64,000 nucleotides of DNA, taken from Bacteroidota bacterium. Its GTDB lineage: Bacteria; Bacteroidota; Bacteroidia; UKL13-3. Below the pieces are notes generated by a model, which saw only the letters and a list, made by a program, of their open reading frames with translations, was not told where the DNA came from and made no database searches. Positions 1-9,865 of the stretch are shown piece after piece. Position 1 is the first letter of the stretch. Each line of letters opens with the position of its first letter. Where the stretch lies: contig CANGVA010000006.1 in the NCBI GenBank assembly GCA_947457395.1, positions 1 to 64,000 on the forward strand. The letters run 5' to 3'. A program made the translations under genes and the position numbers.

Positions 1-50
1 CAAGGGGTGGAAATCAAGCAAGATGATTGCAGCGTTAATAAACGGAAACG

Positions 51-103
51 GGTCACAGGCCCGTCCCGACAAGTCGGGATGAGAAATCCTGTTGCCTCCA
101 CCA
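51..103 (+). tRNA. tRNA 3'-end-like fragment with a palindrome in its T-loop
   Basis: Bases 88-103 read as the 3' end of a tRNA: T-stem CCTGT (88-92), acceptor strand TGCCTCC (93-99), discriminator A and CCA (101-103). The partner T-stem ACAGG sits at 55-59, preceded by GGGTC, as in many tRNAs. The T-loop should be 7 nt, but 28 nt separate the stems and they contain TCCCGACAAGTCGGGA (64-79). No matching acceptor strand GGAGGCA, D-arm or anticodon arm is visible upstream. I therefore read this as a tRNA remnant or an integration (att) site, not a functional tRNA. A tmRNA end is unlikely because the acceptor strand differs from the usual AGCTCC. Confidence 0.4.
64..79. repeat. CCCGA palindrome, copy 1
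   Basis: TCCCGACAAGTCGGGA, inside the T-loop of the tRNA-like fragment. Copy 2, identical, forms the terminator at 109-124. Confidence 0.6.
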
Positions 104-108
104 CTTAA

Positions 109-130
109 TCCCGACAAGTCGGGATTTTTT
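109..130 (+). terminator. Terminator made from a repeated palindrome
   Basis: TCCCGACAAGTCGGGA (109-124) is followed by a run of T. It is identical to the palindrome in the T-loop of the preceding tRNA-like fragment, so one repeat type serves as a terminator here and interrupts an RNA stem-loop there. Confidence 0.55.
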
Positions 131-250
131 GTGCCATGCCATTTACCGTAAACAACTTATTGCCATAGCGATAGCATTTTACCCGGCCTTATTACCAGAT
201 TGGCAGCTACTAAGCACGCAATACAAAAATAATTTGTAAAAATACGACCA
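131..250. other. Non-coding stretch between tRNA-like fragment and first cassette
   Basis: I see no credible gene here. The only open frame, on the minus strand across 157-348, overlaps the attC-like inverted repeat and resembles no known protein. Confidence 0.4.
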
Positions 251-2771: not shown

Positions 2772-2946
2772 AACCGCTAACATGCTTTTGGCGTCATACG
2801 GGGCATAATGCTTAAATTCAAGTGCAGCTTTTCAAATCAACTTTAGTGCTTGGTTGACAGTTTTCCCGCTAATGTGGGACAATTTGTGCTCCGATCCCGA
2901 TTGCTATCGGGAGCGCCACTGTGCCAAGCGGCAAACGTTATGGTAC
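2772..2946 (+). other. attC-like recombination site J2
   Basis: The left box AACCGCTAAC (2772-2781) is followed by TTTTGGCGTCA, as in J1 (TTTTGCGTCA). The right side has TGCCAAGCGGC and the box GTTATGGTAC (2937-2946). The arms TTGGC and GCCAA pair, but more weakly than in J1. The loop shares AACTTTAGTGCTT (2839-2851) with J1 and carries the palindrome TCCCGATTGCTATCGGGA (2895-2912). Confidence 0.6.
2895..2912. repeat. CCCGAT palindrome, copy 3
   Basis: TCCCGATTGCTATCGGGA, in the loop of attC-like site J2. Confidence 0.6.
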
Positions 2947-5594: not shown

Positions 5595-5612
5595 TCCCGA
5601 TAGCTATCGGGA
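5595..5612. repeat. CCCGAT palindrome, copy 4
   Basis: TCCCGATAGCTATCGGGA, in the loop of attC-like site J3. It is flanked by GGTT and AACC, which extend the hairpin. Confidence 0.6.
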
Positions 5613-5628: not shown

Positions 5629-5644
5629 TCCCGATTTTTCGGGA
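5629..5644. repeat. CCCGA palindrome, copy 5
   Basis: TCCCGATTTTTCGGGA, 17 bases after copy 4 in the same junction. Confidence 0.6.
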
Positions 5645-5728: not shown

Positions 5729-8700
5729 ATGATTTTAAAAGAATTGAAGCCAAGAAAGGCACTTAACAAAGCCTTTTTAAAAGTAAAACCGAACAGGACT
5801 GAAATTGAAGGTTTCAAGACTAATCTCATTACTTTACTCGACAGGACAAATGACACAGAAAGCGAAGAGTTTCATAAAAACTTAGTTTCAGACTTTCTTA
5901 AAGACACCTATTACAAACAAAACCATTTTATAAATACCAAAGGCCGCAACGACCTTGTTATTCATAACGGACAAAATGCAAACTCGACAGTTGGCGTAAT
6001 TCTCGAAGCGAAAAAGCCGACCAACAAAACGGAGATGATTTCTACCAAAAAACTGAATGCAAAAGCGTTTCAGGAATTGGTTTTGTATTACCTAAGAGAA
6101 AGAATTACACATAAAAATCTTGAAGTAAAACATTTGGTGGCGACCAACATCAATGAATGGTTCATTTTTGACGCTACCTTGTTCGACAGACTTTTTGCCC
6201 AAAACAAAAATCTTGTAAAGCAATTCAACGACTTTGAAGGGGGACGTTTGGCTGACACCAAAACGGATTTTTTCTACAAACAAATTGCCGAGCCGTTTAT
6301 TGACAGCATCACTTCTGAAATTGAATTTACCTACTTCAACATTCAGGACTTTCAAAAACCGTTACGCAATACCGACAAAGCAGACGACAATTCGCTGATT
6401 GCTTTATTCAAACTTTTATCGCCAGAGCATCTTTTAAAACTTCCGTTCACTAACGACAGCAACAGCCTTGACAAACGCTTTTACAGCGAGTTGTTGCATA
6501 TTATCGGCTTGACCGAAACCAAAGAAGGAAGTAAAAAACTGATTGAACGAAACAAAGCAGGTGAACGACACACAGGAACAATTCTTGAAGATGCAATCAT
6601 TCAGCTTGACAGCTTGGATAAACTAAGCAGACTTGAAAAACCAAACCTCCCGATAGCTATCGGGATCGGCAACACACAACAAGAACGACTTTTTAATGTT
6701 GCTCTTGAACTTTCAATTACTTGGATAAACAGGATTTTATTTCTCAAATTATTAGAAGCTCAGTTAATCACATATCACAAAGGCGACAAATCTTTTTCAT
6801 TTCTCAACCTTGACAAAATCAAGAACTATGACGACCTGAATAGTTTGTTTTTTCAGGTGTTGGCACGCAAGTATGACGAGCGAAACGAAGATGTAAGAAA
6901 GGCATTTGAAAAAACGCCTTATCTCAATTCTTCGCTTTTTGAGCCGACAGACATTGAGCAGGTTACTTTGTTTATCAGCAACCTGAAAGACGATAAAACC
7001 ATTCCGATTTTTTCGCAAACCGTGCTAAAAGACCAGCAAGGCAAAAAACGGACAGGCAATATTTCTACGCTTCAATATCTGTTTGAGTTTTTAGATGCTT
7101 ACGACTTTGGAGCAGAAGGCGGTTCAGCAATTCAGGAAGACAACAAAACACTGATTAACGCTTCGGTTCTTGGATTGATTTTCGAGAAAATAAATGGCTA
7201 CAAAGACGGTTCTTTTTTCACTCCCGGTTTCATCACCATGTATATGAGCCGTGAAACCATTCGCAAAGCCGTTGTGCAGAAATTCAACGAAACCAAAAAA
7301 TGGAACTGCACAACGCTTGAAGAACTTTACGACAAAATTGAAGACCGAAAAGAAGCCAATAACATAGTAAACAGCATCAAAATTTGCGATCCTGCCGTTG
7401 GTTCTGGACACTTTTTAGTTTCGGCACTCAATGAAATGATTGCTGTAAAAAACGACTTGAAAATTCTGCAAGACCGTGACGGAAAACGCTTGAAAGAATA
7501 TCAGGTGGAAGTGGTAAATGATGAATTGATTGTAACAGACGAAGAAGGAGAACTTTTTGAATACAACCCAAGCAACAAAGAAAGTCAGCGAATACAAGAA
7601 ACGCTTTTTCACGAAAAGCAAACCATTATTGAAAACTGCCTTTTTGGTGTGGACATCAATTCCAATTCCGTAAAAATTTGCCGTTTGCGTTTGTGGATTG
7701 AGCTTTTGAAAAATGCTTATTACATTAAAAGCTCCTCCCCTAACATAGGGGAGGTGTCCGAAGGACGGAGGGGTCAAGAACAACTAAACAATTTACCTCA
7801 CCTCAAAACCTTCCGCAAGGAACTCCGCAACAACCTTACACCGGCTGAAGCCAAACTCTGGACTATGCTTCAAGGCAAACAGATGGATGGAAGAAAGTTC
7901 AGGCGTCAACATAGCTTTGCCAATTACATACTTGACTTTTATTGTCCCGAAGAACGCCTGGCGATTGAATTAGATGGGCAAGGTCATTTTGAAGCCTCGC
8001 AGGCGGAGTATGACAGAGAAAGAGATTTGTTTTTGGAAACTTTCGGAATCAGAGTATTAAGATTTGAAAACAAATGGGTGTGGGATAATCCGGATGGGTT
8101 GCTGGATGAAGTGAAAAGTTATTTTGGAAAACAACCACCCCGTCCTTCGGACACCCCTCCTTACAAAGGAGTTGAAAATAACCACCCCGGCTCTATGAGC
8201 CACCCCTCCTTTCAAGGAGGGGAGCTTAGAGAGTTGCAAACCTTGCCAAATATTGACATCAACATCAAATGCGGAAACTCTTTAGTGAGCCGTTTTGCCA
8301 TTGATGCCGACCTGAAACAAGCCTTGAAAAAAAGTAAGTGGACAATTGACAGCTACCGAATAGCCGTTGATACTTACCGCAATGCTGAAAGCAAGGAACA
8401 GAAAAGAGAAATGGAACGGCTGATTGCCGATATTAAATCGGATTTTAGAAGTGAAATTTCATTGAACGACCCAAAAGTTCTTAAATTAAGAAAACTATCT
8501 GGTGAGTTATTTACAATGACCAATCAAGGGCAATTGTTTGAAATGAGCAAAAAGGAAAAAGCCGATTGGAACAAGAAAGTGCAACAACTGACCGAAGAAA
8601 CCAAAAAATTGGAAACCGAAATTGAAGAAATAAAGGCCAACAAGATTTTTGAAAACGCTTTTGAATGGCGTTTTGAATTTCCCGAAGTGCTAAATGATGA

Positions 8701-9865
8701 TGGCGATTTTGTGGGCTTTGATGTGGTGATTGGAAATCCGCCTTATCTCAGAGTAAGAGACGAATCAGAGCAAGTTAGAAAATATTATTTTGACAATTAT
8801 TCAGTTTCGGAAAACCAATTAGACTTATATCATTTATTTATTGAAAGGTCTTTTGCAATTGCAAACAAAGAAAGCGTTCATTCACTAATTGTTCCCAATG
8901 CCTTTTTAGCAAATCAAAACAACATCAGATTAAGGAAATTCATTCTTGATAATCTTTCAATTGATAGAATTATTGAAGTTAAGGATGATGTTTTTGAAGA
9001 AGCATCAGTAGAAGTATTGATTTTCATATTTAACAAACCTCGTGTTTCATCATTAAGTCAATATTTCATTGCTGAAAAAGGTAGTTTTTACTACAGGAAC
9101 AGTTTTGATACTAACACATTCCAAAACACACCTAACATCAACTTTACAGTTACGGTTGATACGAAAAGGCAGGACATTATTTCGAAAATCCTTAGAAAGT
9201 CTGTAAAAGTATCTGATTTATTCAACACTATTTCGGGCATAAAAGAATATCAAGTTGGAAAAGGGAAACCGCCTCAAAATGATGCCCAGGTAAAAGGAAA
9301 AGTTTTTAATGCAAATAGTAAAATTGACGATACTTACCTTCCAGAGCTAAGGGGTAAAAATTTATCAAAGTATTCATTTACTTGGGAAAACGAATATATA
9401 AGTTACGGAACGTGGTTAGCCGAACCTAGAGTTCCTGATTTTTTTGAAGGCGATAAAATATTAATTCGCCAAATTCCAGCAAAAGAATCTCTGATTGCTT
9501 CATTTATAAAAGAAACTTTTGTAGTTGACCAAACAGCATATATCGCAAAACCAAAATCAGAAATAGACATTTTATTTTATCTCGGCATACTAAACTCAAA
9601 ACTTCTCTTTTGGTATTTTCAGAATATCAATAATGAGTTCGACCAGTTGTTTCCAAAAATTAAAGTGAAGGAATTTAACTCATTGCCTGTGCCAAGTATA
9701 GAATACGCAAGTGAAGAAATCTCAAGTATTGTATCAAACATTTTAGGGCTTAAAGCAAGAGATAAAAAATATGACATTTCACAACTCGAAAACCAAATAG
9801 ACCAATTAGTTTATCAGCTTTACGGCTTGACGGAAGAAGAAATAAAAATTATTGAAAACTCATAA
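5729..9865 (+). CDS. Type IIG restriction-modification enzyme with embedded DUF559 domain
   Basis: This 1378-residue protein combines DNA cleavage and adenine methylation in one chain (Eco57I-like). The N-terminal nuclease signature is D75...E93-A-K95 (RNDLVI, ILEAKKP), a PD-(D/E)XK pattern. SAM-binding motif I DPAVGSGHF lies near residues 554-562 and catalytic motif IV NPPY at 1003-1006. The C-terminal part (about 1010-1370) is the probable target-recognition domain. Residues about 668-832, between ICRLRLWIELLKNAYYIK and LPNIDINIKCGNSL, are foreign to the family: they form a DUF559 (Vsr-like) domain with LTPAEAKLW, LDFYCP and AIELDGQGH. An in-frame palindrome adds six residues near 308. It is the only gene of its cassette. 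Whether the enzyme still works with the insertion is unknown. Confidence 0.9.
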   Translation: MILKELKPRKALNKAFLKVKPNRTEIEGFKTNLITLLDRTNDTESEEFHKNLVSDFLKDTYYKQNHFINTKGRNDLVIHNGQNANSTVGVILEAKKPTNKTEMISTKKLNAKAFQELVLYYLRERITHKNLEVKHLVATNINEWFIFDATLFDRLFAQNKNLVKQFNDFEGGRLADTKTDFFYKQIAEPFIDSITSEIEFTYFNIQDFQKPLRNTDKADDNSLIALFKLLSPEHLLKLPFTNDSNSLDKRFYSELLHIIGLTETKEGSKKLIERNKAGERHTGTILEDAIIQLDSLDKLSRLEKPNLPIAIGIGNTQQERLFNVALELSITWINRILFLKLLEAQLITYHKGDKSFSFLNLDKIKNYDDLNSLFFQVLARKYDERNEDVRKAFEKTPYLNSSLFEPTDIEQVTLFISNLKDDKTIPIFSQTVLKDQQGKKRTGNISTLQYLFEFLDAYDFGAEGGSAIQEDNKTLINASVLGLIFEKINGYKDGSFFTPGFITMYMSRETIRKAVVQKFNETKKWNCTTLEELYDKIEDRKEANNIVNSIKICDPAVGSGHFLVSALNEMIAVKNDLKILQDRDGKRLKEYQVEVVNDELIVTDEEGELFEYNPSNKESQRIQETLFHEKQTIIENCLFGVDINSNSVKICRLRLWIELLKNAYYIKSSSPNIGEVSEGRRGQEQLNNLPHLKTFRKELRNNLTPAEAKLWTMLQGKQMDGRKFRRQHSFANYILDFYCPEERLAIELDGQGHFEASQAEYDRERDLFLETFGIRVLRFENKWVWDNPDGLLDEVKSYFGKQPPRPSDTPPYKGVENNHPGSMSHPSFQGGELRELQTLPNIDINIKCGNSLVSRFAIDADLKQALKKSKWTIDSYRIAVDTYRNAESKEQKREMERLIADIKSDFRSEISLNDPKVLKLRKLSGELFTMTNQGQLFEMSKKEKADWNKKVQQLTEETKKLETEIEEIKANKIFENAFEWRFEFPEVLNDDGDFVGFDVVIGNPPYLRVRDESEQVRKYYFDNYSVSENQLDLYHLFIERSFAIANKESVHSLIVPNAFLANQNNIRLRKFILDNLSIDRIIEVKDDVFEEASVEVLIFIFNKPRVSSLSQYFIAEKGSFYYRNSFDTNTFQNTPNINFTVTVDTKRQDIISKILRKSVKVSDLFNTISGIKEYQVGKGKPPQNDAQVKGKVFNANSKIDDTYLPELRGKNLSKYSFTWENEYISYGTWLAEPRVPDFFEGDKILIRQIPAKESLIASFIKETFVVDQTAYIAKPKSEIDILFYLGILNSKLLFWYFQNINNEFDQLFPKIKVKEFNSLPVPSIEYASEEISSIVSNILGLKARDKKYDISQLENQIDQLVYQLYGLTEEEIKIIENS
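6648..6665. repeat. CCCGAT palindrome, copy 6, inside a coding region
   Basis: TCCCGATAGCTATCGGGA is identical to copy 4 but lies within the restriction-modification gene. It reads through in frame as part of LPIAIGIG. Confidence 0.65.
7731..8222 (+). mobile_element. DUF559 insertion element inside the restriction-modification gene
   Basis: The insert is about 492 bp, a multiple of three, and stays in frame. The left end is a hairpin CCTCCCC...GGGGAGG (7734-7754) and the right end a hairpin CCCCTCCT...AGGAGGGG (8203-8222). Internally, GGTGTCCGAAGGACGG (7753-7768) is exactly inverted at 8140-8155. AGCT abuts both outer ends but in different frames, so a target duplication is not established. 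The encoded DUF559 domain has an LDFYCP aspartate and the AIELDGQGH glutamate, which fit a PD-(D/E)XK nuclease. The host protein sequence resumes with no loss of the conserved LPNIDINIKCGNSL. Confidence 0.7.

Follow-up and report, generated by a model that had tools for sequence, protein, structure and literature searches.

A hairpin-marked tRNA-Val tail at the start of a Bacteroidota contig, very probably the downstream border of a GIY-YIG nuclease cassette

The window analysed in this study is a stretch of 64,000 nucleotides whose base 1 coincides with the start of contig C6 in a draft genome of 2.54 Mb. The following features were recognized at its start, all on the plus strand:

2..82, plus strand: 3' end of a GIY-YIG endonuclease gene, comprising the last 26 codons and the stop (translation KGWKSSKMIAALINGNGSQARPDKSG, then stop), with the 5' part lying past the contig end
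50..59, plus strand: piece of the displaced tRNA-Val comprising the variable loop and the T-stem 5' half (GGGTCACAGG), with the same letters as the intact gene on contig C28
60..85, plus strand: 26-nt insert with the palindrome TCCCGACAAGTCGGGA (64-79) replacing the T-loop TTCGA, the same kind of swap as in 46 of 53 remnants elsewhere
86..103, plus strand: displaced tRNA-Val copy, 3' half of the T-stem, acceptor 3' strand and CCA (ATCCTGTTGCCTCCACCA), identical to the tRNA-Val on C28
104..130, plus strand: second tRNA-Val trailer with an intrinsic terminator (stem 109-124), matching at 100% identity the trailer behind the intact gene on C28
136..149, plus strand: copy of the start of the GIY-YIG gene (14 bases, ATGCCATTTACCGT), followed by unrelated sequence; the same letters lie behind the intact tRNA-Val on C28 and in genome G001

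The letters described in the initial annotation were all present, namely the pieces of a tRNA tail, a palindrome between the two T-stem halves and an identical palindrome in the terminator that follows; the second tRNA block was exact, and the first begins at 50 rather than at 51. Two features had escaped that annotation, the start of the contig at base 1 and the coding capacity of 2-82. The translation of the latter is comparable to the end of the tRNA-Val-linked GIY-YIG protein at locus L116 (...VKLWKSRKRVEQLIAGSAHPA), and since a GIY-YIG C-terminus is encoded at 2-82, the end of the nuclease gene overlaps with the tRNA remnant and the palindrome. The insert CCCGTCCCGACAAGTCGGGATGAGAA (60-85) stands exactly where the T-loop belongs. 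The 18-mer at 86-103 occurred once in the window (0.02 expected with up to three mismatches), and the palindrome at 64-79, whose identical copy at 109-124 precedes TTTTTT, had five matches in the window with up to two mismatches, against 0.01 expected. No tRNA or tmRNA spanning positions 1-103 was found with ARAGORN or Rfam, in agreement with the earlier view that the 5' half of the tRNA is missing here.

The intact tRNA with the same 3' end, which the initial annotation had proposed to look for, was found at the end of contig C28 (tRNA-Val(TAC), C28:131-208, minus strand, 3' end GGGTCACAGGTTCGAATCCTGTTGCCTCCACCA), with the same terminator behind it. Behind this tRNA come CTTAATCCCGACAAGTCGGGATTTTTTGTGCC and then ATGCCATTTACCGT..., with which a GIY-YIG gene begins; the gene is cut by the contig end, and its encoded N-terminus matches PF01541. 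Window positions 85-140 and C28:94-149 were 100% identical, and elsewhere in the genome the 18-mer occurred only in the C28 tRNA-Val itself, directly in front of the GIY-YIG gene. Most likely, C28 and C6 therefore flank one cassette or a short cassette array; under this inferred join, the assembly would have broken at C28/C6 because the middle of the cassette is missing between them. The start of the window is thus very probably the downstream border of a cassette with the order tRNA, terminator, GIY-YIG gene and displaced tRNA tail, and the suggestion of the initial annotation that the remnant may mark one end of an inserted element was partly borne out, in this form.

Two uninterrupted cassettes were found on contig C13 of the same genome:

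C13, first cassette: tRNA-Ala(GGC), terminator, GIY-YIG gene, GAGGTCATCGG, hairpin-rich insert of 85 nt, TTCGACTCCGTTATCCTCCA, terminator
C13, second cassette: tRNA-Asp(GTC), terminator, GIY-YIG gene, GGTCGCGGGTTC, CCCCGAGTACTCGGGG, CGTCCGCACCG, terminator, start of a second GIY-YIG copy

Moreover, partial copies with hairpins in the D- or T-loop were present at tRNA-His, at three tRNA-Leu genes and at tRNA-Pro, some of them as tandem arrays at contig ends, and no GIY-YIG gene was seen at these copies within the stretches read. At tRNA-His(GTG) (C14:1-300 and C32:6700-7037; L198 and L199), tandem units of 92 bp consist of GGGTTCGA, a hairpin, CCATATTCCACCC and a terminator, with a 5' tRNA-His copy carrying a D-loop hairpin upstream and no GIY-YIG gene in sight; these arrays are possibly nuclease-less derivatives of the same element. 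At tRNA-Leu(GAG) (C7:134688-134963 and C10:94600-95153; L200 and L201), units of 65 bp hold the tRNA 5' end and a D-loop hairpin; on the other side lie complete pseudo-tRNA-Leu copies whose D-loop carries this same hairpin. In a looser self-comparison, the raw count of tRNA genes of the genome with an extra partial self-copy within 700 nt was 11 (chained exact matches scoring at least 16). Many of the assembly breaks of the genome, at the ends of contigs C1, C5, C6, C7, C8, C10, C14, C16, C28, C29 and C32, lie in tRNA-associated repeats or GIY-YIG genes. A tyrosine recombinase gene (C11:21820-22308) lies about 0.8 kb from tRNA-Lys(TTT) (C11:23090-23162), which has an exact 18-nt 5' self-copy upstream, and this pair is a candidate for a true integrase-tRNA island.

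The REP sequences and the Rickettsia palindromic elements are short palindromes of one family dispersed over a genome, some of them inside genes. The pattern TCCCGA..TCGGGA occurred 36 times in the present genome and once for the backwards control and, in contrast to those elements, many of the 36 palindromes sit in extra tRNA copies. Palindromes of this pattern were also seen on C18 and C19 and at window positions 2895-2912, 5595-5612 and 5629-5644; the latter three are inter-ORF segments of the cassette array in the window and may be attC-like loops. In addition, the palindrome TCCCGATAGCTATCGGGA at 6648-6665 lies inside an ORF of 1378 aa (5729-9865), to which, as judged by eye, it adds ...LPIAIGI..., in the manner of palindromic elements that sit in frame within protein genes. 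The repeats of E. coli tyrT, with rtT RNA, are tandem repeats behind a tRNA gene, each of which includes the last tRNA bases; to our knowledge, they hold neither a nuclease gene nor arm hairpins. The rtT RNA family (RF00391) had no match in the window, in which cmscan at the gathering threshold gave tRNA-Cys only.

The cassette GIY-YIG proteins are about 80 aa long. Three relatives scored 54-59 bits against PF01541, the window itself holding the C-terminus only, and the catalytic residues Y6, Y17, R27 and E63 were invariant in 14 relatives. In the comparison of genomes G000 and G001, dN/dS was 0.16 for the Ala-linked gene and 0.15 for the Asp-linked gene. Because the Y, Y, R and E residues are invariant and both ratios are low, the protein is under purifying selection. 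In Pfam, these proteins fell under the generic GIY-YIG model, one of them also weakly under T5orf172, and the two proteins tested against NCBIfam had no match; by sequence, the nearest solved structures were UPF0213 and SLX1. A phage or virus origin was considered and rejected, with just two weak partial matches in viral contigs and, in a tblastn search of 50,697 phage records with one member, none at E 1e-3.

Linkage to tRNA genes was a property of this subfamily. A profile of the tRNA-linked proteins split the GIY-YIG matches of relatives into two score classes, and a same-strand tRNA lay at most 300 nt upstream, mostly at 18-94 nt, in 53 of the 82 high-scoring loci, against none of the 23 low-scoring ones, which belong to another GIY-YIG subfamily; some of the high-scoring loci lacking a tRNA are later array units or lie at contig edges. 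A scan of genome contigs for the subfamily, with a 3-row alignment as query, gave 80 named loci (49 with an upstream tRNA) spanning Flavobacteriales, Cytophagales, Sphingobacteriales, Chitinophagales, Bacteroidales and others, together with a few bins labelled Fidelibacterota, Magasanikbacteria (in the mirror form), Chromatiales and Ignavibacteria. Furthermore, a separate phylum-wide sample had a match in 125 of 296 genomes and 75 of 140 genera (E <= 1e-17), and the 28 held-out phylum loci comprised 22 with an upstream tRNA, 2 in the mirror form, 20 with a remnant and 18 with an arm hairpin. The mirror form, in which a hairpin-marked 5' part of the tRNA precedes the GIY-YIG gene and the intact tRNA follows, was represented by loci L090, L119, L287 and L308. 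Tandem arrays were frequent, and the largest, at tRNA-Asn in G021, had eight units with a period of about 410 bp.

The general anatomy of these loci is an intact tRNA, its trailer and terminator, the GIY-YIG gene, a 5'-truncated copy of the tRNA and a second trailer, the displaced copy carrying a palindromic hairpin in the T-loop and/or in place of the anticodon arm. Of the non-redundant loci that have a tRNA upstream (n=81), 53 had a collinear copy of that tRNA downstream; when tRNAs of other isotypes were used for comparison, the figure was 14 of 856. The tRNA 3' end was reached by 50 of the 53 remnants, which mostly start at or after the D-loop, and a hairpin stood in an arm in 46, situated in the anticodon/variable region in 20, in the T region in 15, in both in 9, in the D region in 1 and in D and T in 1. 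When the class I loci with a copied 3' end (n=66) were scored, two appeared to retain both the anticodon arm and the T-loop, and both proved on inspection to be artefacts of the test. The hairpin stems were mostly of the form YCCCGA..TCGGGR or TCCG..CGGA. Among the variants at Ala (n=9) and Met (n=7), all six stem pairs were kept, with both-sided changes at two pairs each; this kept pairing does not reveal its cause, because palindromes can template themselves.

Several observations bear on the question of movement. After removal of near-duplicates, the nearest relatives in different orders were linked to the same tRNA isotype in 22 of 72 pairs, whereas 5.7+-2.7 were expected, a value reached in 0 of 5000 shuffles. 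On the tree, isotype needed 35 changes, compared with 85 for shuffled labels, the shuffles ignoring relatedness. An isotype that follows the nuclease lineage is the pattern that would be expected from target recognition. In addition, genome G002 has tRNA-Ala, terminator and accA in a row with no cassette, and the same site is filled in G000 and G001.

The tRNA-Asp locus was compared between G000 and G001. Identity was 933/1000 in the upstream region, 75/75 in the tRNA, 43/65 in the first trailer, 202/246 in the GIY-YIG gene, 40/41 in the remnant and 48/50 in the second trailer, and in G001 a G000-like trailer lies behind the displaced copy and a different trailer behind the intact tRNA. From this alignment, one lineage appears to have undergone an exchange of the stretch between the tRNA and the remnant, which is bordered by the two tRNA copies. 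Between the same genomes, dS was 0.74 for the Asp-linked GIY-YIG gene, 0.31 for the neighbouring accA and 0.11 for the Ala-linked gene; the excess of the Asp-linked gene, at about 50 synonymous sites (52), is suggestive. The patch was not repeated in other pairs: some were near-identical throughout, and the remainder had diverged too far, were interrupted by contig ends or had no tRNA call. Behind another tRNA-Asp (L323, in G011), two tandem tail copies with degenerate hairpins and terminators were seen, with no GIY-YIG gene; this site adjoins accA, and the same site holds a cassette in G000, G001, G044 and G060.

The reading that we favour, and regard as reasonably probable, is that of a free-standing homing-endonuclease cassette that targets bacterial tRNA genes in the manner of SegB and of the mitochondrial mORFs, the homing itself being what we infer from these patterns. 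Under this proposal, the nuclease would recognize its own tRNA gene and cause a double-strand break, and repair against a cassette-bearing allele would copy in a fresh tRNA tail, a trailer and the nuclease gene. The native tail and trailer would be pushed downstream and serve as the right-hand homology arm, and recombination between the repeated tails would then give rise to arrays. The cassette would be tolerated in an essential gene because the new tail keeps the tRNA working. In the most speculative step, the hairpin would destroy the recognition site in the displaced tail, and such self-immunity is a tentative suggestion, which we hold to be possible rather than probable. Protection of the host by a recoded, cut-proof tRNA was ruled out; the cassette does not shield its host in this way, because the intact tRNA-Asp of the filled site in G044 shares all 75 nt with its counterparts at the empty sites in G009 and G011. 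It is likewise possible, rather than probable, that, phylum-wide, these are minimal selfish elements made of an ~80-aa nuclease and a spare tRNA tail, which parasitize tRNAs isotype by isotype and in which the swap of an arm for a hairpin prevents recutting.

The main competing explanation, which we consider unlikely on balance, is local tandem duplication, in which a nuclease gene came by chance to lie behind a tRNA and unequal recombination or slippage duplicated it together with the tail. The surplus tails would then be debris that takes up dispersed palindromes, and the nuclease would either ride along as a passenger or promote amplification, as SegB does in phage T6. The trailers speak on both sides of this question, the tRNA itself being too conserved to show origin. 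The trailer after the tRNA and that after the copy were at least 80% identical in 27 of 48 loci, which would fit local duplication, and less than 60% identical in 16 of 48, which would fit import; such foreign trailers are not accounted for by duplication. The start of the GIY-YIG gene was also copied in 15 of 48 loci, as at window positions 136-149, and this, like the existence of long arrays and the hairpin arrays at tRNA-His and tRNA-Leu with no GIY-YIG gene in the DNA read, argues for duplication. However, duplication leaves the tracking of isotype across orders unaccounted for, together with the empty and filled site, the patch bounded by tRNA and remnant (one case) and the hairpins at the T-loop or anticodon arm in nearly all copies.

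A further explanation, which we regard as improbable, is that the GIY-YIG transcript ends in the hairpin-armed tail as a functional RNA element, retained for its action as a processing signal, stabilizer, terminator or decoy. The fully paired stems of the Ala and Met variants are consistent with such a role, as are the swapped hairpins, often about as long as the arm that they replace. Nevertheless, the swapped arm varies by locus (anticodon 20, T 15, both 9) and the copy lacks the 5' strand of the acceptor; self-templated repair can keep palindromes paired, so that covariation in these small samples is no proof. Finally, the attachment-site remnant of a tyrosine-recombinase genomic island proposed in the initial annotation is highly improbable. 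In its favour, islands classically attach at tRNA tails, and integrations of this type have commonly left partial tRNA copies behind (PMC9897764). However, the genome has four PF00589 integrases, all of them on contigs other than C6 and C28, the 18-mer expected as a direct repeat at the far end of the island is carried by the C28 tRNA-Val alone, complete loci of the same architecture hold only GIY-YIG gene(s) between tRNA and tail, and an att site gives no reason for a hairpin in the T-loop or in place of the anticodon arm.

The closest known systems to the proposed homing cassette are SegB and the mORFs. SegB of phages T4 and T6 is a free-standing GIY-YIG homing endonuclease found in tandem tRNA-nuclease units, and its authors ask, for their enzyme, why the intact gene escapes destruction (PMC13096335). 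The Bacteroidota loci resemble it in that a GIY-YIG gene lies beside tRNA genes of many isotypes with no intron or intein involved, and in that tandem units join the nuclease 3' end to the interior of a tRNA. Unlike SegB, the Bacteroidota nuclease is a single domain of about 80 aa encoded on bacterial chromosomes, and its gene is trailed by a displaced, 5'-truncated and hairpin-marked tRNA tail; its lineage follows the tRNA isotype, whereas no isotype preference has been reported for segB (PMC13096335). The mORFs of fungal mitochondria occur in atp6 of Allomyces and in atp6, atp9, cox2 and nad3 of Glomus (PMC3630166). There, the endonuclease ORF brings a replacement 3' end for the host gene, which is restored as a hybrid, and the native end is displaced downstream; the corresponding architecture was seen in 53 of the 81 loci. 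The hosts differ, being bacterial tRNA genes here and mitochondrial protein genes there, and the Bacteroidota loci differ further in the hairpin mark on the displaced end and in the presence of arrays and of a mirror (5') form. Hairpin-marked displaced ends appear in neither of the accounts of SegB and the mORFs that were consulted (PMC13096335, PMC3630166).

In conclusion, the feature at the start of the window is ordinary for its genome and its phylum in that its recurrence is wide, and the recurring element appears not to have been described previously. In the open-licence literature, preprints excluded, no paper on tRNA-linked GIY-YIG cassettes in Bacteroidota was found, nor was a nuclease cassette in tRNA genes found described as such for bacteria. 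If the homing reading is true, about 4 in 10 of the sampled Bacteroidota genomes (125/296) would bear a selfish nuclease cassette inside the translation apparatus, and there would be an explanation for partial copies of tRNAs and for assembly breaks that fall at tRNA genes. The cassettes would also provide many natural GIY-YIG nucleases with guessable targets, and it would become testable how a selfish element can live, with neither introns nor inteins, in a gene that is essential and non-coding.
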